The translations under genes were made by a program, and so were the position numbers. From positions 13,251,856 through 13,315,855 of the forward strand of contig NC_135246.1 in the NCBI RefSeq assembly GCF_947623445.1: a DNA stretch of 64,000 nucleotides, read 5' to 3'. The stretch's first letter is position 1. The number at the start of each line of letters is the position of its first letter. The stretch comes from Clavelina lepadiformis (lineage: Eukaryota > Chordata > Ascidiacea > Aplousobranchia > Clavelinidae). This document shows positions 1-64,000 of this stretch, piece after piece. The notes beneath the pieces were generated by a model, which was not told where the DNA came from, did not search any database, and saw only the letters and a program-made list of their open reading frames with translations.

Positions 1-3000
1 ATTAATGTAAATATATCTCAATGTAATCTTGTCAAAAGTTATTTCTTTTTGATAATGGGGAAATTGCAGTTGCTAGTGCAATATTGTATTCTTATTTTTA
101 TTTCTTCAGTATTAAAAACTTTTCAGGGCAAATTTTTAGCTGAGGTTTATCATGCAGTGCTTTGTCAAACATTTATATTGCTCCTGCTTTAGAAGGAAAA
201 TGAATATGATTACAACCATTTTTAAATGTTTTAAACGTTTTTACATAAAAATATTAACGAAAACCTTTTGTATATGGACCCCGTTGTTTGAAAACATGTT
301 ACTTTTGGGGTTTACAGCGATTAAAAGACTCATCCAACTGAATTGATTGTATCATGATGTGAATTTAATCTAGCGATAGTTAACTAAGCAATCAGCTGAC
401 ACCTCACACATGATATTTCCACTTTTACGATTTCGAACGCCTTGTGTACATTAAATAACAAATGGTATTGTTTATATCTTTGGCGACGACTAAACTTTCT
501 ATAACCTCAAGTTAAATGTCTTTAAACAAATCTTATTAAAGAGGCCTTTGTGTTATGTAGCCTTGAAAGGAATTTTTACATACTTTTTACAAGATATCAT
601 AATCAGAACACAAAGTTAAATAGACTGCGATATGTCAGCGATAAATGTCGTCAAGTGATGATAGAATTTGCAGAAGTTTTGTGTTCTTTAACGGCGATAA
701 ACACGAGTGCTTCGGTAATAACAGGAAGGGCTTTGTTGTCTCAAGCTGCCAACACCAGCTTTGTTGTAGGATTTCGTTATGTGGAAAGTATAGGAATAAC
801 GAATTACTTTTTCTAAACAGCATAACGGTACTGGCGTTGTATTTTTATCCAAGCACTGGTATCGAAACCGACGTTAATTGCAAAGTACCAACTGCCCACC
901 TCTGGACATGGAAAGAGCTAAACTCATAAACTTGTTAATTTTAGAGTTCGTTCTATCTTTTACTCTACAACAAGTGTGTTCATGTCTTAAAAATATACTG
1001 TAAGTTAACTTGCTACATGGAAAGCTTGACGGCTGCTAAAAATATCTTGTCAGAAAATTTTATTTTGAAAAACGTTATAAGAGTATTGCTAAAAATTTAG
1101 CTAAATATTTTTCACTTGTGCATAGAATTGTTTTAGCTCATACAGTAATTCTACCAAAAAAAAACAATTAATTAGAAATTGTTTTGTACCTAAAGGGCTT
1201 TACGTACATATGAGACTCGATGCTTTTAATGTACGTCACTTTCGGAATTTTGCTTCTATTTAAACATTCAAAAATGTTTTTTTCGCATGGTTTTGTTTCG
1301 CTTAATGAGTTTGAATAGCTTAATTTTAAAACATATGACGTTTCATGTAACTCGGAAAAAAATGAAACGCAAAGTATATAGTCTATGTGCATAGGCTATT
1401 TATCTTTTGAAATGCTAGCTACCAACAACTGTTGACAATCCAGTCAGCCCAAATAGACTATACAGCTAAGACAAAAATTAAAACAAATATTTGTTTAACA
1501 AAGAAACGGAAAGAGGAAATCTAATGTTTGCTTTATCGATTGAAAAAAGCTAAAAACGTATCATGTTATTATAAAATGACACCTTAAAGGTTTTTATGTC
1601 TCTATATACCTAACTATACAGCCCAGGTTCCAAGCAAACATATCACGATTATCTGACCGCATTATTTCCATTGCAGCAGACAACATCTTTGGCGCAAAAT
1701 TTGAAGTGCCTATTTTGTAATTGAAACGCGTTTTACATTATGTTTTTTCTTGGTTGTATGCATGTACATCGCTAACGTTCACTGCTAACTAAAACTAAAC
1801 TATGCTTTCTTCTATATCACTCAATATATGGATTGTTGGACAAGTTTCGTAGTCTTGTGATACATATAGTTTTACATACGTTTCTGATAAGTATTTTACA
1901 TGAAATACTAAACATGTTACTGTTGTTTACAAAAGAAACACATTCGATGGATTTGCTAAAAAACTTAAAATGACCGTAAATAATTACAGTACTTATAAGT
2001 AGGCTACCTTTGAAACAAAGTATGACACAGAATTCTAAACATATAAATTCAAAATTTGGTCACTGTTTTAAATAAAGGTATAATGCCAATGCAGTTGAGC
2101 AAGTTAACATTCAATTTATAAAACTTTAACTAAGATTGGACAAATACATGTAAATTTAGATATACATATACATAAAGCAATTTGTGGGAGCAAACTATAC
2201 CTGATCCAGCTTAGTGTTATATTTTCGAAAAAAAGTTGAAGGCTAAAGTTTGTCAAATGACTGACCAGTAGTTCTGATCTAATAGTACCATTACAAAGGA
2301 CTGTCATTTTACGCTCTCCTAATAATTTCCAAAATAGTGTTTGTTTTCTATATTTTACTGTTACTTTTCTTTACCATTTACTTTTATCGTTACCAATCTT
2401 TTTTAGATATTTTTATAACACAACCCAAATAGAATCATATTTTGCACTGGAAGGCAATACCGTACTTTTGTTAAGCGTACAGACAACTTCTTTTATTTAA
2501 TAAAGCTTTTTGCTGGTTGATGCGTTTATAGGTAGGGATGTGCCGAACACGATCCTGAGCCGGAAAGGTTCAGTATGAGCTTTACCAATTCTAAGTATTC
2601 TCACAATCCGGGGTTTCACTCACGGATGTAAATCGTTAACTTTTGGCAAAGAAACAAGTTATTGCGACAAAAGAATTCTTTTTAAAACATTTCATGATCT
2701 ATAAAGCTTTCCTAAACCTGACATCAATCACAAGGTTATAGTTACCTCCACAGTATGTAGTAAGTAACCTATATATTTATGCATAGCGTGCTGGCCCTGT
2801 TTAACGCTTTATGTTAGTTTTTCTTCTACAATAAAAAAAAAACAAGCAGAAAAAATTGATTAAACGAGAAAAAAACGTATGAACGTGAAGCATATACTGT
2901 AATCTACAAATAGAGAAAATCGATTTAGCCTATATAAAAGATCTATGTTCATTGTGTAGCCTCTACGTGTTTTAGAAAAAGTGCGATACTTGTCAAGCTA

Positions 3001-3856
3001 AATCAAATATAATCGGTTGTGTTAATGCAAACTTTCTCTTATTCCTTTATTTGCCACTGACAACTGTTTGTACCCTCGAAACAGCCGTTATGGAATTCAT
3101 GCATGCGGTAGACAGAGTGTCACTCGCATGTCACAGTCACGTGAGTGTATACGGTATACTGCTGTAACTTAGCTTCCTGAAAAGTCAATCACACAACTTC
3201 TGTTAGTCAAACGTTTTCATTCCATAAATCCAAAAATATATCTATACCAAGAACCATACAGCCTAAACCATAATAATTTGCTTTGCTCAAACTCACGTTT
3301 CCAGTGGAAAACTTACAGGTTACATTTTCAGTTATAGTATACTGAATAACTGTAAAACGTTTACTTTAATATACCGCCAGTAATCTTGGTCAAAATCATA
3401 ACAGCCGTTTGTAGCAGACAATTTCTTCTTTGCCATAAATTTTATCGTTGTGATGTTTGCTTATACACTATATAGCTCGCATTTTAATTTCAAGTATATA
3501 TTGCAGGTATAACAGTGTAAAGTAAATATTTTGCCATCATACAAAATTTTTAAATTTAGTTTAGGTGTATTAAGTCTGATACCAGTTGGTAGTCGGTAAA
3601 TTATTAAAAGGTTTTTGTTATCGCGTTACGGTGGATTGTTAACACAGATGAATGCCATGATATAACATTTTAAAGTATGACAAAAAAAAGTTACTGCGTT
3701 GATATACCGTAAGTGCCATTAACATTTAACAGTGACAAAGATAAAAGTTTGAAATTCAAAAAGAGGTGAGCTCATAATGCCTTTTCAAGAGATTTGGTCA
3801 ATCACAGTTTTTAGGGACCATTAAACACTATTTAGAAGTGTTTGGTGGCTTTAAAG
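1..3856. other. Gene-poor AT-rich stretch
   Basis: I see no convincing gene here. Open frames are short and have no recognisable domain. The longest (645-929, plus, 94 codons) lacks splice context and resembles no family I know. Two stretches have splice-like edges but cannot be placed: plus strand near 1675, where a pyrimidine tract and CAG precede a 14-codon frame ending in TAA, and minus strand 2210-2307, where a frame ends at a GTATAG donor-like site. The last eight bases (3849-3856, ctttaaag) are the left target-site duplication of the MITE that follows. Confidence 0.5.
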
Positions 3857-45983: not shown

Positions 45984-49878
<3,895 letters not shown>

Positions 49879-50726: not shown

Positions 50727-52422
50727 TTAGTCAGTCTTTGCTTCTCTGGTTGCCCATACTTCTTTCAGATTGTCGCAATTAATTCCAACCTTTAAAAGTT
50801 GAAAAAATACTTTAAAAGAGCAACATAATCGTCGTCTGTGAGTTTATAGGAAAGACTATACTACAAACCATAGGCTCCCCCAGATCGTAGCTGACGTCTG
50901 CAAGAATTTTCGGGTCTTTGTAATGTGTGACGGCCTTTACCATCGCTTGGGCACGTTTTGTTGGGTTTGAACTCTTGAAAATGCCTGAGCCTACAAAAAC
51001 GCCATCGACTCCCAATTGCATTAGAAGGGACACATCCGCTGGTGTGGCTACATTGAACAATCGTGGTTATTTTCGAAACATTCACAGAAAACATATTTAG
51101 TCAGGGTAGTCACACAGAAACGAACCGAGTCCTCCAGCCGCAAAATTTACAACAGGAAGCCTTCCGAGTTCCGCTGTCTTTTTAAGAAGGTCAATAGGTA
51201 CCTTTCACAGAAGACAGCCTTATTTTATTACCTCAGGCTACTATCTGATACTTAAAACATTTAAGTCTTAATTATATAGTCTTGATTAAAACAACACGGA
51301 TAATTGTAGCAAGTGTCGTAAAAATTAACTTAATGTTAACCTGAATTTCTTTAGCAAAAGAATATAATTCCTCGGGGTTCATAGCTTTAGCTTGTCGAAT
51401 TTGACGGTTAATGGCACGCGCGTGTCGTACGGCTTCGACAACATTTCCAGTTCCGGCTTCTCCCTGAGAAAGCCGCTTGTTATTAGGCTGCTTTTGCATA
51501 ACATCGTGTTTCGCAGTTATTGATGTTCTACGTACCTTTGTCCGTATCATCGCCGCCCCTTCAGAAATCCTTCTTAAGGCTTCTCCTAAGTTGCGGGCGC
51601 CACAAACGAAAGGTGTCTTGAATGGTTGCTTATCAATATGATTTTCCTCGTCGGCCATCGTAAGGACTATAAAATAGGTTTATATAGTTTCTACAGACAC
51701 CGGTATACAAGTTTTAATGCACCTTCTGATTCATCAATCATGTCGACTCCAAGGGATTCCAGGATTTGAGCTTCGGCAAAATGTCCTATTCGTGCTTTAG
51801 CCATAACTGGTATGGTAACAGCGGCCATAATCTCTGTAATTATCTAAATAAGATATATCCGGTACGTAACCAAACGGCCATGGTTTGCAATTAACGCCAT
51901 ATAAATGACATTCACTAAAAATAGTACATTAAAATACCTTGGGGTCCGTCATTCTTGCCACTCCGCCAAATTTTCTTATGTCCGCTGGAACGCGCTCGAG
52001 TGCCATCACGGCGCACGCCTGCAAATATTAATGTCACACAACACAGTGTTATGAAACCAAGTCATGTGCTTTGTGTTTTTCTCAGTCTTACCCCTGCAGC
52101 TTCTGCAATTTTAGCTTGCTCTGCGTTGATTACGTCCATAACCAAACCACCTTTTGTCATTTGAGCAAATCCGCTTTTTACAGTGAACGATCCTGAAGCA
52201 ACAAGAAGTAAAAGTTTTCATTTTGCCTTCTGACCCAGACCACATGAATTATTTTTTAAGTAGCGAATGTATTTAAGTTGAATGTAGTTCTGTATTCATT
52301 CGCCATTGATATAACTCGCAGAAATAAAAGACCGATGAGATAGCAAAATCTTTTTTTTTGAACATAGCCTACTTGGCAAGCGCAAGACTTGGGCGTGACT
52401 CACCAGTTTTCACGTCTCCCAT
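50727..52422 (-). CDS. PDX1: PDX1/SNZ, pyridoxal 5'-phosphate synthase lyase subunit
   Basis: Synthase subunit (bacterial PdxS) that builds pyridoxal 5'-phosphate from ribose 5-phosphate, glyceraldehyde 3-phosphate and ammonia supplied by PDX2. Nine exons, all GT-AG: 52404-52422, 52092-52192, 51938-52018, 51723-51843, 51536-51666, 51341-51463, 51126-51201, 50869-51047 and 50727-50789. The product is 297 residues, the same length as yeast SNZ1. Every catalytic landmark of the (beta/alpha)8 barrel is present: D26 in LVMDVIN, K83 in [11 protein letters not shown]151 in MIRTKGEAGTGN, NFAAGG, and the phosphate loop [13 protein letters not shown]26, K83 and K151 correspond to Bacillus PdxS D24, K81 and K149. 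The start is fixed by the short first exon (MGDVKTG), which aligns with the fungal N-terminus. The 3' tail after GEPM is shorter than in bacteria but ends with stop after KTD. Divergent partner PDX2 lies 4.1 kb away. Confidence 0.96.
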
Positions 52423-52569
52423 TGTGTGGTCTATGTTGTCGATTTCCACAGCAACAAGCTATACAAGTGAGACAATCTATAATGTACCTGTAGTGCCTGT
52501 GAAAAGGTGTTTACTATTTAGTAACTTATTCATAGCGTTTTTGCAAGTTTAACACTATTTTAGCACTAA

Positions 52570-52599
52570 TTTACCCGCCAGGCCTACCTGGCGGGTAAA
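52570..52599. promoter_or_regulatory. 13-bp perfect inverted repeat upstream of PDX1
   Basis: Arms TTTACCCGCCAGG and CCTGGCGGGTAAA surround the four bases ccta. It begins 148 bases upstream of the PDX1 ATG on the PDX1-PDX2 intergenic side and is markedly GC-rich in AT-rich surroundings. It could be a protein-binding operator, an RNA hairpin in the 5' UTR, or the footprint of a tiny element. The function is unknown. Confidence 0.6.
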
Positions 52600-54784
52600 C
52601 GACAGTTTTTAAAAAATCGCCATAAATTACTGCAGATATCCTGAGATGCTATTTTCACGTTTAAACGATGAACCTGCTTTTTTTGAAATGCTGAAAATCA
52701 GATGTCGTAGTATTAATTCTTGTTTTCTATGTCATTGATAACTGTAATCGAAAACCAACTAGTAAAAGCAAGGGAGCGATTTGCATTTCCCCTGAACCGA
52801 CATGCGCTGGGAAAATCTTAGCGACATACAGTAGGCCTACTTAGCGACAACATCTGTGCTTCAATTGCTCTCGTTGGACTACTTGCTGTGCTACCATTTA
52901 ACGATGACAACTATAGATATACCACATTTGCTTTAATAAACCTCTTTTAATCACTCGTATTTTGCAATGTGCAATTTTGCAATCAAGCATCATTACATTA
53001 TGCACAGACATTCGACACATACTGCATGCTATGAGTTCCTTGTGGTGTAGGGATTGCTGAAGCCCAGTTACTTAACGTATTTTTCGGTTGATTTAATAAT
53101 AACTATCCGGTTTCTCTGATTGAATTTCAACCTGTATGCGTCTTATAGTGTGCCATACTTTCTTCGAACACGCTAAGATCAATATTCAATACCCTGCCCA
53201 GTTGGCCCACATTTCTCACTATTACATCAGCAACTCGCTATCAATATTACATAAGCAAACACTCAAACCACCAATGTGATATCGGCTTGTAGTTAGTTAC
53301 GTAATTCGTGCTGATTAGCTGTACATAGGGTCTGCAATAAAGTCCTGCGTTTAAACAATAACATGCTGTCACGATGACACCTAATTGCTTTTCACGCGTT
53401 CATTTATCGGGTTGGTGGTTTTATTTGTAGAAGTGTTTGTTGTACAGCTGTACAGTGAAAACCCTACCACTTCTTTGGTAGAGCAATTCATGCGGTAAGT
53501 ACGTTCTTTTTTGTCTGAAAACCTGAGCCAGGAAATGGTCACGTGTTTTACTGAAATGTACTGTGTTTAGTGACAGGTTTAGCAACAGGGTTGCAATCGG
53601 TGTTATCAGCGCATTACTTTTAAATTTATGTACGGATAGTCTGGCCGTGAAGTTTGAAGCTGAAACTTTGACACCAAGTAACCTCAACCACGTGCGTCAT
53701 CATTGCGTCCTAGTAACCTCGTGTCCTCATTTCGCGAGTTACGCAATCAAAAGTCATGACTACAAAGTAAGTCAACGTATTTACTGTGTAGATTATTGCT
53801 TGCTCTAGCTTACTTTGTTGTAATACAATTACAGTATGTATTTTGTCCAAGTTCTTAACATATTTTAACTTAACGCAACAGCATGTTACTAGTTCAATTG
53901 GTTGTTACGATTTGACCAGAAAAAGTGCACGTTCGAAGCTATTTTGTATTGACTTGTTTTTTATTAACTTAAATTATTGTATAGTAACTTAAACCTCACC
54001 TAAGTTTATCTTTTAATGTAAGTCTTAACTTCAATTTATGCCTAAATAACGAAAATAGAGTATTGGTCTACCATACCCTTTCTCGTTTCTCCTTACACAA
54101 CCTTTTCATGCCAACGTCTACTTGCTTTCCGGCATATGTTAACGCGAGGTGAAATTACGCGAAATGAACGCACTTCATCTTTTTTGAAGAACTGTAATCC
54201 AAAAATTTTGATTACTTTACTCCTTGTGGTCTGACTTCACATTTTAACTTATAACAACATTTAGTTGTTGCTGGTCATGATCAAGTGTGTTACACAGCTC
54301 AGCAGTTGGCACTGAAGTTCTTGGTTACAAGATAAAGTCTGTAGTGTTCTGGCTATGTAGCTGAACCACATATTGGCCGTGAAATCTTCCGCTGCCAGAA
54401 TGTAAAATACAGTAATAATGCACTCGCTTTCGACTCGCAAACATGTGTCCGTATACATGTACAGTACATTGTTTTATTGACATCGCAATTCATTTCCATT
54501 CTGCTGAAGATTAGACTACGAGTAAGTCTGATACATCACGAGACTCCAGCTGGTATAGAGAAATGTCCAAAGCGCCTTTGTAGTTGCAGTACTGTGTAAG
54601 TACTTAGATTAGCCTGAAGGGACAATATAATGGAACGACGTGCAAACCATTAGATTGGACAGGAAATAGAGTTTGCATAAAAAGTAAAACTAAGATTGAG
54701 AAACTATAACACGACGCACGAAGCCAAAAACTCACAAGATACTGTATGAACTTCCTGCCTTTTACCCATGTTTATCTACTATAG
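52600..54784. other. PDX1-PDX2 intergenic region, left part
   Basis: No gene recognised. Short open frames on both strands near 53421-53808 lack family similarity. Regulatory sequence for PDX1 is expected here, but I can name no site beyond the inverted repeat at 52570. Confidence 0.4.
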
Positions 54785-55721
54785 CAGCGGTGTCCATACT
54801 ACGGCCCGTCATCTGTTTAATATTGGCCTGCGGCCATCATCGAGGTCACACGTAACGTCGTACCAAAGATAAAGAAATACGAAACAAACGTTTGAAGTTT
54901 AGGTCTAACAAACTTTCTTTCAACATAGCTTACATAAAGTTGTTCAACTTCAAACTATTCAGGCGCGAATTATTTTTCCCAGCATTTAGCGGTAATTATT
55001 AATTTACATTTGTTAATTTTAAGATGACCTAAGTTACGATACGTTATTGAGCAGATATTGCGTAGACATTTACAAATTATGTTTCACAAGAACTACACAA
55101 TACAGTAATTTCTTATGGTCCCACCTGCCACAAGACCCTGTAGTGCCTGTACACTACAGTTAGCGGTTATATGTTGTTATATGTTACATCAAATATGGCA
55201 GAACCAAAGCAAATTTTCGAATGCAGGTATAGTATACATAAGTCAAAAATCTTCATTGTTATATAGGTCTTAACCACAATATACTAAGAACCAGAATGAC
55301 TGACAAGCATTTATGTGATGTCTTTCGCATCACTGCTCCCACAAAGAACGTTGAAATATTTCCAACTTTTATCCGCCCATTTTTCAATGAATGCATAAGA
55401 TTAGTTCTTCTAAAGGCTTTTTGATTTAAAAAGCGCTGGTCGGCGTAAAATTTGCGTTTGTGCTACCTGTTAGAGTTGCAGGGGCAAGCAAGTCGTTACA
55501 TTTGTGTGAATTTTTTATTGCTTTGGGCGATATTTTTCTCGGCCTACTATTTAACATTTTCAGTTCAAAAATGAATTTTTCCGCCAATGAATTTGCCCAT
55601 GGTCTTTACGATAGTTGTTGCGTTGTAGGCAAAACAGCGATCTTCAGACACAGTGAGTGGCCCGGACACTGGTTACCGTTTTAGCAAATGGCCCTCAGTG
55701 AAAAAGGTTTGGACAACCCTG
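54785..55721. mobile_element. hAT-type element between PDX1 and PDX2, 937 bp
   Basis: Inverted tips cagcggtgtccatac on the left and gtttggacaaccctg on the right, matching at most positions. The flanking 8-mers are tactatag and tacagtag (6 of 8 identical), a degraded duplication. The left end continues tacggcccgtc and the right end tggccctcagtg. There are only short open frames, none transposase-like. The looser ends suggest it is older than the other hAT insertions here. Confidence 0.75.
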
Positions 55722-56522
55722 TACAGTAGGCCTGCGTTGAGAAAACGATGATTACGGCTTTACTGATGGTTGTCGAAATATATGTTTCGTTACAAAACTA
55801 TGATGAACGAAAAAACTGCAGCTTAGGTTCAGTGGCGGTTTGAGTGGGTGGCTGACTGGTTGCAGCCGGAGGCCCTGCGAGTTGAAAAACACGTACTTAC
55901 AACAACAAAAATGACTTAATTCTGATGTAAAATAAAGTTCGTCGATTCTGTTGATTACAGAAGAAAGTAAGCGACTGATTTTCTTATGTCTGTCCGCTTT
56001 CTTGGCATATTTAACCCAATATGTCCATTTTTATTTCATTCACTCAGTTAGTTACACGCACTTAACGTGAAACGTTCCCAACAACATGATGACGAATTAG
56101 TTTTATTGTTTTGGACCTAGAAGTTAACCGCAGCATTTTAGCATTGATAAACATCGCGCCAGGTAAGAAAAATTTGGATTCGTGGGAATTCCAATAATAT
56201 ATTTCTGCAAATCCGGTTCTGCTGACTTGCCACTTAACAAAAAAACTTATAACCAAATTTTGAGTTGCTTCGGTTGGTTTTGAGTTACACTTGTAGAAAG
56301 CCGAGCGATTGTTAGTTACAATTTAAGCACGTATAACGCAATATTAAATCATTTAGTAATATACTAATATAACGACCGATTTTACCAAAGACGCCCCTGA
56401 CTCAATTTTAGCCATGGACACCCTCCAGTTTAATCCACTCCTTCTTAGGTTAAATAATTAAAAACTACTGTAGGCCACCTGACAAGCTAGTGTGCATAAA
56501 CAGGCAAGCGCCTTTTTATGAT
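55722..56522. other. PDX2 upstream region
   Basis: Presumed promoter and 5' UTR of PDX2. No gene or transposon end recognised. A longer 5' UTR with an extra exon cannot be excluded, because the first coding exon of PDX2 is only nine bases. Confidence 0.4.
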
Positions 56523-57826
56523 ATGTCTGGCGTTAGTTACAGTAAAATAGTCAAATCAGATTAAGTTTTTAAGACAAATGCTATGCAACGTATATCGTTA
56601 ATAACCCAGGGTCAAGGTTGGAGTTTTAGCAATACAAGGTGCGTTCATAGAGCATGTTCACTCTTTGCAAAAAGCCGAAAACACGTTGAAATTGAAGAAA
56701 CATGACATTGAAGTGCAAATAATGGAAATAAGGACATCGGATCAGGTGTATATATAAGCAACTTTTTCAATAAATTTTATGGTTCTTGCCTATTAGTGAT
56801 TTATATCAATAACGCATGACTTATATGGACCAGCAGCACGAAATTCCATACGCAACCATAACCATTTTAATATAGCTTCGCTATTATTTTCAGCTTAACG
56901 ACAACCTGAATGGCCTTATTATACCGGGTGGTGAGTCAACAGTTATGAAGAGGCATTTTGAAAACGGTTTCTTGGAAAATCTCAAGGATTGGACTCGTTT
57001 AAAGAATAAGGTATTATCTTGCCTACTTTCACACTATTTTTAAAAATACTTTAAGGAAAGATATTGAGTCTACAGTACGTGTAGCTGCCTAATAAGTTAA
57101 TTCTTGTAATAAGTTTTATTTGCAGTTTACTGCATCCATTTATAGCTAGTTTATACCAATACCTGCTTTTGTATGCATGGAGCATATGCAGATTACCGTG
57201 AAAATAACACAATAACATGTCTGGTCAGGTGAACGTATGTTTTTGTAGTTTACGTGGGGTACATGCGCTGGCCTGATCCTGTTATCGAATCAGATGGATG
57301 GTGGAAACTCCGAAGTACGTTGATTGATTAATTACACTTGCTAAAGTTACAAATCAGCTAAATACTGAATTTGTTTCTTTATGGACATGTCACTCGACAT
57401 CATGAACGTTTCACGGGAACAGTTTTTGTAAGATTGTGTAAGTAAACATATTCATTCGTTTTTGTTTAGTTACAGATTGGTGGTGTTGACATCACGTGTT
57501 CTCGCAATGCTTACGGGAGACAGATAAATTCCTTTGAGAGTCCTCTGCACCTGCTGGACTCACAGTTACAAAACATCGCCGGAAACAATACCTGTCTGGG
57601 CATATTTATCAGGGCGCCCAAAATTAAGTCGGTGGACAGCCAATCTGTCAACGTACTGTGCCATTTGAGCGCAGCGTCGCACGAGAACAACGCAGTTGAC
57701 GAGCCTGTCGCCGTGTGTCAAGAAAATATCATGGTTTCTACTTTTCATCCGGAGCTCTCCGGTGACACTTGCTGGCACGAATATTTCATATTGCAGGCCG
57801 CTGTACGAAAATCATTTCAGGCTTAA
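56523..57826 (+). CDS. PDX2: PDX2/SNO, pyridoxal 5'-phosphate synthase glutaminase subunit
   Basis: Class I glutamine amidotransferase (bacterial PdxT) that releases ammonia from glutamine and channels it to PDX1. Exons 56523-56531, 56617-56745, 56894-57010, 57249-57314 and 57476-57826, all GT-AG, give 223 codons plus stop (yeast SNO1 224). Seen in order: GVLAIQGAFIEHVH; the oxyanion motif PGGEST at 57-62; the nucleophile C91 in GTCAGLI; RNAYGRQINSFE; FIRAP; and the H198/E200 pair in FHPEL. The Cys-His-Glu triad is therefore intact. The start is the least certain point: the frame before GVLAIQG is closed by TAA with no ATG, so a splice is required. ATG-TCT-GGC followed by GTTAGT at 56523 gives MSG in phase and an 85-nt intron. 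An exon further upstream is possible. It is transcribed away from PDX1. Confidence 0.94.
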
Positions 57827-58457: not shown

Positions 58458-61400
58458 TTACTCTTTCTCGGTAATAAGCTTGTCGTTGGCCATGCTTGCT
58501 TCTTTTACTGAGCTGACTTCATCAGTTTCTTTCACCTGTCAACATCAAGAAGAAATTACAAGATACTCTGTGTCGTTAAAATCAATCTCAGATGCCATGG
58601 CAAGGTCTTGTGGTTTGCGTAAAGCCAATTACCAGCCTCCTAAAATCAAGGATTTCTCGCGACAAGAAATTGCAACTATAGATACATTTTAAAAGGTTAT
58701 TGTGAGCCGAATGGACAGCTTATGTGTCAGAAAACTGCGTTCCCGCTACTTCGTATCAAAGGGAATTACAAGATTGCCAAAATCGCATCACCACAAATAC
58801 ACGTACTTATAGTTCTCGTGGAAACAATCACGCCAGCTATTTCCGGCTATTTCCACGTGCGTAATGTTACAAATTTTCGGTGATTTAATTAAATACGAGT
58901 ATTACCGCGGTTGCTGATCATGTTTTTACAAAGAAAACTTTGGAAGTTTAATGATAGGTTTCTTGTCAACATCAATTAAACAGCCTTAAACGCGAAAAGT
59001 TAATACTAATAAGCAGCCATGTTGAACCTCATTGTTAATTAAGCTTCATGGTTTTGTCAAATTTAGCTGACATCTTTATTTGTAAAAATTAATGTATAAA
59101 CACACACGACAAGACCAGCATCAGGCACACGGTGTATGCATTCTCATTTTTATTTTCTAATACTTTGCAGAAAAGAAATGAAGATTTCATCAGGAGAAAA
59201 CTTTTTTCCTGCCTGTGTCCTAAACTGCGCACGAGTCAAGGCAGCTGTAGTTTAAATATAAGTAAATCTTAAAGGCTGGCTTGAACAGAAATGCTTTAGC
59301 GGCCAATAGATCACACCAAGATTGGGCTCACATTGGTTCGGTGCATTTCCCGTACTTCAATAATTATTTCTGCCATACCAAAGAAAAACTTGGAATTTGA
59401 AAAGCAATGACTTCCGTTCAAAATGCCAATGGAGCCATGATCGTGTGAAATTGCCCGAAAGAGAAATGATTAAGCTGCTTGTACAATGAAAATAGTCTGG
59501 ACATTTCAGCCAGTGACGTATCTATAGCGCAAAGTTAGTGTTCTTTCGCCAACAAAACATCTGATATATTACAGGAGTTAAACCAATCGTAATTTTTATC
59601 TCTATGTAAGGACCGCTTCGATTACATATACGTTTGCACACCCCAGTTTACAAACAATGTTAGATTTAAGTTAAATCTTAAACTGTGAGCGAGTCCAAAA
59701 ACAGACGAACACAGCTCGTACAACATTTATGTGACTTCATGCGAACAAGAAGTAAGTTTTTCGGCGATGGTTGTAGATTGCAAGCTTAACTTTGAATAGA
59801 GAAATTGTTTACCTGATGGAGAGGCTGGACCGACTTTATAGGGGTCTCGCAATGCTCTGAGTGGCTCGTGTCCATCTTTCTGCTGTTAGGAGCAGTCTCT
59901 CCGCGGCTGAAAAAGACACCATGTGTGGTTATATTAGTGGGCTGAAGAGCATTTTAAGTGCATGTGACAGAATTAGAATTGTTGCATGAGGTATGCTATA
60001 TCTGCACTTTCCGTAGCGGGAAGCACAAGGCAAGACAAAGGTAAACTACCTGGATAATAATCTTTTGGAGACACAAAAATACCTAACTTGCGTGAAATGA
60101 CTGCGAAGTACCCTAGTAGTTTGGGTTTTTGAATTTGGAAGCAGATAAAAAAAGACATGTGGAATGTAAATTTAGAAACATTTGACTTGTCGGATTACCA
60201 GAAATCCTGAATTTAAACTTCCGTATTTCTAAATATATCTCGGTTTTCACCAATTTCCAGGCTGATGTGAGCAGACGCCAGATGCTTATAGTCACGTATG
60301 CAAAACAATGACCGTCATAAACAAAGCATATTCCGACCCGGATAAAAAGAGAGCAGTACTAACACGAAGTCTCATTAGAGCCAATGGTTTTAAAATAGAG
60401 CTAAACATTATCAAGAAAGGTTAAACGCCCCATTTGTGTGTCAGGGAATGATTGTTTTTGTCCATTTCGTGCGTCCATAGGATCTTTCACATCACTCAAA
60501 TTTAATTGAATTCTTGTCAAGCAATGAGCTAGGTTGCCAAATACCTCATGGTGTTGCTTGTGTATTTAGTGAATGTTGTAAACGAGAACGAACGGAAGGA
60601 TATGGCGATGCTCTTTCGCAAACGTTCCTGGAAGTTGTGTCCCAAAAATGTGTAGAGAATAGGGTTAAGGCAGCTGAAAATAGAAAGTCAAAATTCAGAA
60701 AACAGTCCCCAAACCTAAGCTCACAGCACGATGCTGGATATGACTTTCCCTGCATGTTGAAGGCAATGAAATATTTACCTATTCGCATATCCCAGACAGA
60801 AGGTAAAGTCTCTGACGTTGTGACAAACACCGATGTTGGCACGTATGCCTCGGATCTGGATGAGATGCCAAACGTAGAATGGAAGCCAGCAGATGAAGAA
60901 CGTGATCACAAGCACGATCACCATTCGCGTCACCTTGCGTCGAGTTCGTTCGGCCTAAACAACATCCGAGTTATATGATAGATTGTTGAAATACTGCCGG
61001 CGTCAGTTCAATGCTTGTAGTGTATACGCAGAAGTTTTAGGAACGCACAAATACTAATTACCCTACATAAATCCTTCAGAAAACTGAAATTCATTAACAT
61101 GCATATTCTTGGCATCATGAATAAAGTGGCACAACGATAAAATTTTGCGCTCATGTGACATGTCTATAGCTAAAAGTGGAGGGAACGTTGTTCGAAACCG
61201 TAAAATTTTATACCTGCTTTGACCGACCCCTCGTTTCCGATGGCTGCAGGAGCCGCATGATGATCATGATGTAGCATATTGTTATTATGAAGAATGGAAT
61301 CACAAATCCGACCACGAAGGTGAATATCAAGAAGACGTGAAATGTTTTGGAATCGGCGTGCTTACACAAAACTTTCATGTCGTCTTCTGAGGTCTTGTTA

Positions 61401-63451
61401 GGAACTAAGGCGTCATATTGAGCAAGAAATTCTTCATAACCTGGATATCCCCCTGACATTCCACCTTTAAAGTTAATTTAATTTTATGTAATCCTTTATG
61501 GATGTCTACAACGTTGGCGTTACATCGTAGACAACATATACAACTAACAAGAAAATATTTCAACGTCATAGTTAAAAATATAGCGGCAAAATATTAAAGA
61601 CAACAGAGGGAGTTTAATGGTTAGTGCTTATTCAATAACAATAACTTTATAACTCCTAATAGCAAGCTGATTTAATCAATTTATACCATACTTAGAACTT
61701 TATAAGTATGGATATAACATGATGTAATTACGATATACAGTAATACCCCGTCACACCACACTCGTTCTTGTTCTGAACGTCGTCACCAAACAGCTACACT
61801 TTGTGCGAACGAAACGGTCGTATGATAACAATTGTCTATAAACGGTCTGTGCACAAACTTCAAGAATGGGTTTGATCATTTCGTTGAAAAATTATAATTA
61901 TAGACGTAGAGTAGTGGCAACGTATTTAAACGAGATAGACGTACTACGAACGAAAGTTGTTGTACTGATATTGCATTTTGCGCGTATATTACCATTTTCG
62001 GGAAATAATTCGAAAAAAACTTCGACTTCTAATCAGATCACAACTTGTTTTCAAATAACTGGAAATTTTTTTTTGTTTTCAATCAATAGTTTGAAAATTT
62101 TTCCGATATCACAAAGTGTTATACAATTTTTCAAAACTTTATCGAGTGTTGAGAACAAAATTGATGTGACAGGACATGGGTATAACTACCAACCCGTTTC
62201 TTCTGGAAACATAGGCACCACGTTAGCGTAGTCGTTGTAGACAGCTTTCTCATCGCAGTTGTCTACATAAAAGTCGTATTCTGTATCATTTGGGAATGGA
62301 ACAGCTTCCGGTCCAAAATCCTGGTAATAGGGTTCCGTGCTTCCCTGTTGCACGTTGAACACCAGAGCACACACGTCTGCAAATTTGTGTGGAATTTATG
62401 TTATAACTTAACAGATATAATATGAGAAGACAAATAAAGATTAGCCCTTAATTGCTCAAAATTACCCTCTAAAATCTCTCCTAAGTGATTTTCAGTAACT
62501 TAAGCGCCTTAAACCTAGCGCTCACATGATCACGCATTGCAATACTTAAAAGACTCGTATATTTGCACGAAAAATATTTTGCAGTTAGGGAATGTTTATG
62601 GTTTGCAAACAAGATTATAGGCATCGACGATCCGTTGCGGTTCACGCTTAACAAAGCTGAAGGCGTCTGAAGCCCCACAAACTTTATCTCCAAAAACTGC
62701 GTATCGACCATTTTTGACAAGGGAGTCGAATGATTGTCGACGCGCATGTGGCTTAATCAAGGTTTTCTTGCTTAATATCTAGCAGGGATACCGAAGAATA
62801 GTGGTTACTTTGTTGCCCATACATCGGAGAACGTGCAACCGTAACGTAGAGTCGTATATTGCATTTGCCATTTACGGTTCAGGGCATCGGATGGGATATG
62901 TCTCAAACTTGTTCGGCCCCTTCTAGACTTGTTTGGACTTAAAGTATAGGATAGAAATGTTTGATGCCAAACACTTGGATCAGGTACTCGATTGGATAAG
63001 TGAAATCTCAACACAAACCTACCGCTATGAATCCGTGTGTAAATGAGCAAAGGCACCACCATCACCAACGACACAAGCCAAATGGCGGCACAGACCTGCA
63101 TTAGAAAAAATGAAACCTGATGGTGGTTTCAGAAACGTTTCTTAATTTGACAAATCGGTTAAAGGTTAAAAATTTTTAAAACGTTTGCTACCTCTTAACA
63201 AAGTTGTAAGGCGAAATTTTAAAATAGGTAAAAATGGTGTAAAGAAGTCTTATTGAAAAAACCTTTAATCTGATGGCATTAAACGCGTTTGTCACATAAC
63301 AAGAACAAGATCTTACGAAGAATGTGTTTCTGCTCGTTCTCCAACGACTAGACGTAACCACGTAAACAACCGCGATGTAACGATCGATCGACATGGCGGT
63401 TAGAAAGAAGATGCTGGCAAAATAGTTGAGGTATTTTACAGCTTCCACAAT
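58458..63451 (-). CDS. Class A peptide GPCR, somatostatin/galanin-like (3' part)
   Basis: Rhodopsin-like seven-helix receptor; the first exon(s), with helices 1-2, lie upstream or off the window. Exons: 63317-63451 (helix 3, EAVKYLNYFASIFF, then DRYIAVV); 63023-63095 (helix 4); 62194-62376 (acidic extracellular loop 2 with the conserved Cys in VCALVFN); 61214-61464 (rest of the loop, helix 5); 60779-60954 (helix 6, FFICWLPFYVWHL, start of helix 7); 60545-60673 (NPILY, the NPxxY motif); 59813-59906 and 58458-58535 (cytoplasmic tail ending LITEKE). All are GT-AG and in phase, with 372 residues visible. Loop 2 is unusually long (about 100 residues), rich in Asp/Glu/Tyr, with Asn sites NDT and NKT. 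If the donor at 60544 is skipped, reading continues to TAG at 60529-60531, giving a short-tailed form. SRWRTSR after DRY and the WLPF motif fit the somatostatin/opioid/galanin group. The ligand is unknown. Confidence 0.88.
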
Positions 63452-64000
63452 CTGAAAAACACGGAATTGCATTGGCTTGCTATGACGTTAATTAAATGCC
63501 TTCTGGTTACCACAAACTATAGCTCCATCATATAAGCTATATGGCTGCGACTAAATTTCGCAAAGCGAATTAACCAATTGAAGCAACTTTGTGTCAAAGC
63601 TCTGGACACGCAGAAAACGAGGTGCATTTTTGCTTATGGGAAGTGGTAAAAAACTGCAAAGCTGACGCATTTAAAACATAAGATATTGATCACAACATCA
63701 TCAAAATATTAGGCGATTGAACAATCGACGTATTGTAGAACGCCTGAGAAACCACACAAAGTCTGCCCAAACCACATAGGCACGAATGATAATGAAGCAA
63801 GCCATTACAGTAAGAGATACAAAGGACGCGCGTATTATATAGTTGTCAAGCAACATATTGTCACATGAAAACGAAAGATAAAATCGGCAATTACGTACAT
63901 AATAAAGCGCTTCTCGGGAAAATTTCATATGTCAACTGCTGAAGCAGCTTTTACCCTGCAAAATTCCTTTACAAATGTAGCAGTCGTTTTGGTTTGGAAA
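63452..64000. other. GPCR intron and window edge
   Basis: Expected to contain part of an intron, and perhaps an exon for helices 1-2 of the receptor, but I could not recognise such an exon. The minus-strand frame 63701-63928 is hydrophobic in part but shows none of the helix 1/2 signature residues. Confidence 0.35.

Follow-up and report, generated by a model that had tools for sequence, protein, structure and literature searches.

Results

Two divergently oriented genes, predicted to encode the two subunits of a DXP-independent pyridoxal 5'-phosphate (PLP) synthase, lie next to each other in the window, a stretch of 64,000 nucleotides that lies 13.25 Mb along contig C7 of the Clavelina lepadiformis assembly (209 Mb, 95 contigs). 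The substrates from which PLP synthase forms PLP are ribose 5-phosphate, glyceraldehyde 3-phosphate and glutamine, and its complex consists of 12 PDX1 and 12 PDX2 subunits with an ammonia channel. All introns of both genes are of the GT-AG type and both genes are intact (Table 1). Splicing and translation confirmed the first-pass annotation, made from the sequence alone, in its coordinates, strands, eight and four coding introns and divergent gene order.

Table 1. Features of the PDX1-PDX2 locus and its flanks (positions in the window)
Feature	Position	Strand	Basis and remarks
Flanking Got1/Sft2-like (SFT2D) exon	48839-49054	plus	PF04178, 49.8 bits
PDX1 (SNZ, PdxS) gene	50727-52422	minus	9 coding exons, 297 aa; splicing and translation, equal to P0001; TIGR00343 and PF01680 over cut-off
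PDX1 exons	52404-52422, 52092-52192, 51938-52018, 51723-51843, 51536-51666, 51341-51463, 51126-51201, 50869-51047, 50727-50789	minus	
Inter-start region	52423-53755		1,333 bp; putative bidirectional promoter
PDX2 isoform X3 upstream pieces	53490-53494 (start codon and exon end), 53640-53766	plus	joined to exons 3-5, equal to P0122 letter for letter
PDX2 (SNO, PdxT) coding region	53756-57826	plus	5 coding exons; splicing and translation, equal to P0121; TIGR03800 and PF01174 over cut-off
PDX2 exons	53756-53766, 56610-56745, 56894-57010, 57249-57314, 57470 or 57476-57826	plus	
PDX2 exon 4 and intron 4	57249-57476	plus	intron site matches in-frame inserts in P0131, P0132 and P0137 (alignment)
Flanking rhodopsin-type GPCR exons, one or more genes	60775-63487	minus	PF00001 matches at 60775-60954, 61208-61477 and 63188-63487

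The PDX1 translation is equal to the NCBI protein P0001 at 297 of 297 residues, and a second Clavelina PDX1 record, P0002, differs by one residue. The phases of its introns are 1,0,0,1,0,0,1,0. Over nearly its full length the protein scores above the cut-offs of the curated profiles TIGR00343 (475.5 bits, cut-off 438.45) and NF003215 (491.7, cut-off 395), both of NCBIfam, and PF01680 (363.4, cut-off 27). The alignment with PdxS of B. subtilis has 184 identical residues out of 294, and the residues D26, K83 and K151, correctly named as catalytic by the first-pass annotation, pair in it with D24, K81 and K149, the catalytic aspartate and the two lysines of PdxS.

The introns of PDX2 have phases 2,0,0,0. 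Use of the last acceptor at 57470 gives a protein of 228 aa, equal to P0121 at 228/228 residues, while the acceptor at 57476 gives 226 aa. PDX2 passes the cut-offs of TIGR03800 (155.3 versus 105.55 bits) and PF01174 (150 versus 27) and scores 99.6 bits, below the cut-off of 181, with NF010050 (PRK13526, PdxT), one of two PdxT equivalog models; this model presumably describes a narrower bacterial group and is hence not family-defining. The types of the catalytic residues and the PGGEST motif had been named correctly, but their numbering as C91, H198 and E200 was wrong: in the 228-aa form the triad is C94, H203 and E205, the motif occupies residues 60-65, and none of these residues varies among the 15 rows of the alignment. 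In the NCBI isoform X3 the exon carrying the N-terminal strand of PDX2 is absent, and its 53640-53766 piece includes the usual start codon at 53756; judged from the position of its first piece, transcription of this isoform begins at or before about 53490.

The genes were described in the first-pass annotation as flanked by animal genes, and the profile search of six flanking stretches bears this out, with one Got1/Sft2 match, three 7tm_1 matches between 60775 and 63487 and two stretches without a match. Genome searches, in which the best candidates were scored, returned five matches to PF01680, all within PDX1, and one match to PF01174, in PDX2; no second locus of PDX1 or PDX2 was found among these candidates.

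Both genes are already present in NCBI as PLP synthase subunits and are not new: P0001 (SNZERR-like) and P0121/P0122 (PdxT-like isoforms X2/X3) are identical proteins from the same genes, and we saw no difference. The rarity of the pathway in animals had been overstated, as the matches listed include at least 15 animal species with PDX1 and at least nine with PDX2, from sponges, cnidarians, annelids, molluscs, copepods and tunicates. Ciona PDX2 is absent among the matches listed (two lists of 120 rows), though Ciona PDX1 is listed. Four of the listed species have both subunits under their name, and in three of them (Clavelina, Capitella and Owenia) PDX1 and PDX2 are on contigs of equal length, the one feature of gene layout that the lists give; in the fourth, Amphimedon, the contigs are of different length.

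The PDX1 tree was built from 30 of 120 listed proteins, 10 of 80 loci and 6 solved-chain sequences, and the PDX2 tree from 46 of 221 listed proteins; omitted from both by choice were mainly near-duplicates, rows without species name and further fungi. All species-assigned animals in the PDX1 tree (15/15) fall in a single 27-row clade with support of 99/96, the rest of which is 11 other rows and one amoeba placed beside a sponge. Five tunicate-type rows (98/99) are nested within this clade. Molluscs, tunicates and copepods are each recovered as a group (the latter two with rows lacking species name), and tunicates, annelids and copepods come together apart from molluscs (98/85), which conflicts with the species tree. 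The PDX2 tree likewise places nine of nine species-assigned animals in a single clade of 24 rows (98/91), among many other rows without species name; within it cephalopods are joined with cnidarians and the two annelids stand apart.

In the AU tests on PDX1, a single clade of the animals without the amoeba is not rejected (p-AU 0.39). Grouping of tunicates with 14 bacterial rows, a constraint that also holds these bacterial rows together, is rejected (p-AU 0.005; those bacteria alone 0.18), and so is their grouping with seven Chloroflexota-type rows (p-AU 4e-05; those bacteria alone 0.32). A position of tunicates outside the clade's remaining 22 rows is marginally disfavoured (p-AU 0.067), a value that is not decisive for nesting in animals. 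A single clade of 18 PDX2 rows was rejected (p 1e-67), but this set omitted rows within the animal clade and the result is silent on animal origin; the PDX2 animal clade is read from its branch support. A tunicate-specific bacterial source is rejected by the PDX1 tree and the AU tests taken together.

Discussion

Our data imply that a complete predicted PLP synthase resides in an animal chromosome, as the first-pass annotation had proposed: the gene models are intact, equal to the NCBI proteins and above the curated cut-offs, the catalytic residues are present, and both subunits are placed in animal clades. The pair should allow Clavelina to synthesize its own vitamin B6. With high confidence we explain the locus as a divergent PLP synthase pair, found at a single place in the genome, in which the 1.3 kb separating the start codons is probably a shared promoter that would keep the two subunits in step. 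By vertical descent the pair would go back to early animals, and perhaps to an ancestor common to animals and fungi, and would have been lost later in many animal lines, vertebrates included.

The first-pass annotation had left open whether the pair is retained ancestry or an early horizontal transfer. Retained ancestry is favoured over a separate transfer into tunicates, because the animals form one clade for each subunit and the grouping of tunicates with bacteria is rejected; inheritance is thus the likelier of the two, while a transfer that predates the animal ancestor may hold. One could argue that the genes came by horizontal transfer into tunicates or an early animal line and gained their introns afterwards, since the distribution is patchy, bacterial PdxS proteins, mostly from Chloroflexota, are 70-78% identical to Clavelina PDX1 among the matches listed, and tunicates outside all other animal rows are not firmly rejected. 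The same high bacterial identity means that deep PDX1 nodes carry little signal. However, the tunicate-type PDX1 rows lie inside a well supported animal clade, PDX2 also falls within an animal clade, and the comparison of intron positions, which had been suggested in the first-pass annotation, revealed one PDX2 site common to three rows (P0131, P0132 and P0137) that are placed in the sponge clade of the PDX2 tree. We therefore regard such a transfer as unlikely.

Ascidians harbour symbionts, so DNA of a contaminant or symbiont in the assembly has to be considered. Moreover, the specimen used for sequencing had been growing attached to Ciona, as stated in PMC10884593. Against this stand the spliceosomal introns, the animal flanking genes and the location far inside a contig, on which we reject contamination, in agreement with the earlier judgement that it is unlikely; furthermore, P0002 provides a second Clavelina record, and Ciona PDX1 is only 85% identical. 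A foreign origin of this kind has hardly any probability left. It could also be that the genes are present and the usual B6 synthesis is lost, for example with PDX2 decaying and PDX1 working on free ammonia, or with PDX1 in another role. PDX2 is indeed much less conserved than PDX1 (57% versus 87% identity to the best match outside Clavelina among the matches listed), no Ciona PDX2 is listed, and isoform X3 is without the N-terminal strand. Yet the reading frame of PDX2 is open, its catalytic residues and PGGEST are intact, TIGR03800 is exceeded by about 50 bits, and low identity is usual among PDX2 proteins, as the 14 further sequences in the 15-row alignment are 39-57% identical to that of Clavelina. 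Loss of function is thus very improbable, and a vertically inherited pair that is predicted to work is the reading that we retain.

It is a further and more tentative proposal, which we hold to be slightly less likely than not, that the head-to-head pair is one ancestral animal-fungal unit whose shared promoter was kept in annelids, tunicates and others, that the ancestor which vertebrates share with tunicates could still make B6 and vertebrates lost this ability later, and that a living chordate is B6-prototrophic. The interest of the locus lies in evolution. An animal closely related to vertebrates has kept the entire synthase, so vertebrates may have lost it after tunicates had branched off. 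If inheritance is true, animal B6 dependence would be a lineage-specific loss, which can be tested in an ascidian. A 2021 review states that animals are unable to make vitamin B6 and lists the pathway, among animals, for some sponges only (PMC7954711). Our lists and trees show a complete predicted synthase for a chordate, and they contain the two subunits from further phyla as well. Among the matches listed from the open-access literature, no title or abstract dealt with the synthesis of B6 by tunicates, and the available portion of PMC2762978 holds nothing on the gene.

The locus adds no new kind of system. The structures of bacterial PdxS/PdxT, Arabidopsis PDX1 and Plasmodium Pdx2 (2nv2, 2zbt, 5lnr; 2abw) are homologous to the Clavelina proteins over nearly the whole length, and the catalytic residues of the B. 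subtilis enzyme are kept; the matches to solved structures stop short of the last residues, thus the C-terminal tails differ. In the sponge Suberites domuncula, which belongs to a different phylum, PDX1 (P0015) is 77% identical to that of Clavelina, and SNZ and SNO appear together in the title of Seack et al. (2001), as cited in PMC7954711. PMC2871058 describes SNZ/SNO as a pair whose conservation extends over several groups. Divergent pairs are known in fungi and a wider tabulation dates from 2010, the underlying species of which were not found in the available main text. The likeness to the fungal SNZ-SNO layout noted in the first-pass annotation holds, as PDX1 starts at 52422 on the minus strand and PDX2 at 53756 on the plus strand, and the two are read away from each other. 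In yeast the same two subunits are encoded head-to-head, as in Clavelina, by SNZ1/SNO1, SNZ2/SNO2 and SNZ3/SNO3, according to PMC3303733. Yeast has three such pairs, whereas one locus was found in the Clavelina genome, and yeast SNZ1 sits on a long branch (1.63) outside the PDX1 animal clade.

Results

The first-pass annotation had described a complete PDX1 with eight introns and a complete PDX2 with four, and this was confirmed by the rebuilt spliced models, which are identical at every letter to the NCBI proteins P0001 (PDX1) and P0121 (PDX2). Exon 1 of PDX2 holds 11 coding bases (MTT and two bases of the following codon), and its last acceptor may be 57470 or 57476. The PDX2 isoform P0122 was reproduced from the same model by omitting exon 2 and adding the upstream pieces 53490-53494 and 53640-53766; the presence of such isoforms in NCBI suggests transcript support for them.

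Coordinates of the PLP synthase genes in the window
Feature	Position	Strand	Spliced and translated model
PDX1 gene, complete	50727-52422	minus	9 coding exons, 8 GT-AG introns, 297 aa
PDX2 coding region, complete	53756-57826	plus	5 coding exons, 4 GT-AG introns

Three unnamed sponge-clade PDX2 rows (P0131 and the close relatives P0132 and P0137) carry in-frame inserts where intron 4 interrupts Clavelina PDX2, which, judged from their protein sequences, may be read as retained introns; compared from protein rows, the site would agree exactly at the residue level if the 57476 acceptor is the one used in Clavelina. The two acceptors (window 57465-57475) lie 6 bases apart and give proteins differing by LQ. 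The upstream one is used in both NCBI isoforms seen, and the downstream one coincides with the insert boundary of the sponge-clade rows.

The window spans 13251856-13315855 of contig C7 in an assembly of 209 Mb in 95 contigs, very likely from the ascidian Clavelina lepadiformis, under which name the identical NCBI proteins are recorded; the published assembly of this species is given as 210.1 Mb, for the most part in 9 chromosomes (PMC10884593). A profile search of the genome, with the best candidates scored, found no PF01680 or PF01174 match at E <= 0.001 beyond this pair. A second Clavelina PDX1 record, P0002, whose contig has a different length, differs from P0001 at 1 of 297 residues (N170Y). 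Among six flanking stretches, profiles matched Got1/Sft2 in one and rhodopsin-type GPCRs in three, the remaining two having no match.

PDX1 scores above the curated PdxS cut-offs and PDX2 above those for PdxT, with PDX2 below the cut-off of one additional PdxT model, NF010050. Alignment shows that PDX1 retains D26, K83 and K151 (D24, K81 and K149 in B. subtilis) and PDX2 retains C94, H203, E205 and PGGEST, residues which we take to have the functional roles familiar from the family. A working PLP synthase is the best-supported reading of these sequences: PDX2 would release ammonia from glutamine and PDX1 would make PLP. The gene layout suggests that both may be co-regulated from the intergenic region.

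Among the matches listed (best 120 of 8,000 scored proteins), PDX1 occurs in at least 15 named animal species: 2 tunicates, 4 annelids, 3 molluscs, 2 copepods and 4 sponges. PDX2 (best 120 of 7,998 and best 120 of 7,999, two lists) occurs in at least 9 named animals among the matches listed, namely 1 tunicate, 2 annelids, 2 cephalopods, 2 sponges, a coral and a sea anemone. Ciona intestinalis PDX1 is named (P0004, P0005), and no Ciona PDX2 is named among the matches of the two best-120 lists; it could be unannotated, divergent or lost. An unnamed PDX2 row with 57% identity, P0123, might represent another tunicate.

The longest-contig values of the PDX1 and PDX2 rows are equal in Clavelina (20,453,238), Capitella (1,120,146) and Owenia (37,288,061, a chromosome scale at which linkage evidence is weak), so the two genes probably share a scaffold in each of these animals. 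The values differ in Amphimedon (148,503 versus 390,064).

In the 46-row PDX1 tree all 15 named animals fall in a single 27-row clade (support 99/96), whose other members are the amoeba Stygamoeba and 11 unnamed rows. A group with 98/99 support unites five tunicate-type rows, of which three are unnamed. Within the clade, tunicates join annelids and copepods, apart from molluscs (98/85), which conflicts with the species tree, and the fine structure of the clade is therefore not to be relied on. The Stygamoeba row, P0090, pairs with the sponge Halisarca (92/78), which may reflect contamination of its transcriptome or noise. The 46-row PDX2 tree places 9/9 named animals with 15 unnamed rows in one 24-row clade (98/91), whose branching fits animal phylogeny poorly.

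Discussion

The first-pass annotation had proposed either retained ancestry or an early horizontal transfer, and our data partly support this interpretation, with the weight on ancestry. Both subunits lie within animal clades, and a PDX1 clade of animals that excludes the amoeba is not rejected (p-AU 0.39). Joining tunicate PDX1 with 14 bacterial rows is rejected (p-AU 0.005), and with 7 Chloroflexota-type rows more strongly (p-AU 4e-05); the control constraints on these bacteria alone are not (0.18 and 0.32, respectively). A transferred pair would find some support in the placement of tunicates outside all other rows of the PDX1 animal clade, which is only marginally disfavoured (p-AU 0.067), a result that counts against our reading. 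Because of this result we place slightly less weight on vertical descent and on an ancestral unit, and more on transfer. Even so, vertical descent of the pair in animals is very probable and horizontal transfer as its source quite improbable. That the pair was an ancestral animal-fungal head-to-head unit, with a B6-prototrophic tunicate-vertebrate ancestor and later loss in vertebrates, is a tentative proposal that we rate at somewhat below even chances.

A scan with patterns derived from the Clavelina query itself retained, among the best matches listed, 80 bacterial loci nearest to Clavelina PDX1, of which 73 are Chloroflexota by title. Eukaryote PDX1 may descend from a related bacterial type. 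The titles include Caldilineaceae, Anaerolineae and similar.

Both Clavelina genes were already named by NCBI and are not new. A 2001 report of SNZ and SNO from sponges is cited in PMC7954711, and yeast SNO-SNZ genes are described as head-to-head pairs (PMC3303733), the Clavelina pair being likewise divergent. In a 2010 study that covered 64 eukaryotes, SNZ1/SNO1 is one of the conserved gene pairs tabulated in a section on divergently transcribed pairs, with 12 species of the groups Pezizomycotina, Saccharomycotina, M and Protozoa; the portion of its running text on this pair mentions just the two fungal groups, and its printed legend gives M as mammals (PMC2871058). From the NCBI names, the sponge genes, the pair table and the yeast pairs it follows that neither genes nor layout are new. 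We read M as Metazoa, since mammals are not known to carry SNZ or SNO genes. What is added here is that both subunits of a chordate pair are placed inside animal clades, within the limits stated. As a gene family the pair is ordinary, and its interest for the history of vitamin dependence is moderate.

The C-terminal domain of the salvage oxidase PNPO was found in two frames elsewhere in the genome. These PNP_phzG_C frames stand in tandem (904-1659 and 2365-3141 of locus L008, around 19905136-19906773 of contig C2), each a single open frame (251 and 258 aa), and resemble an intronless tandem duplication of the oxidase.
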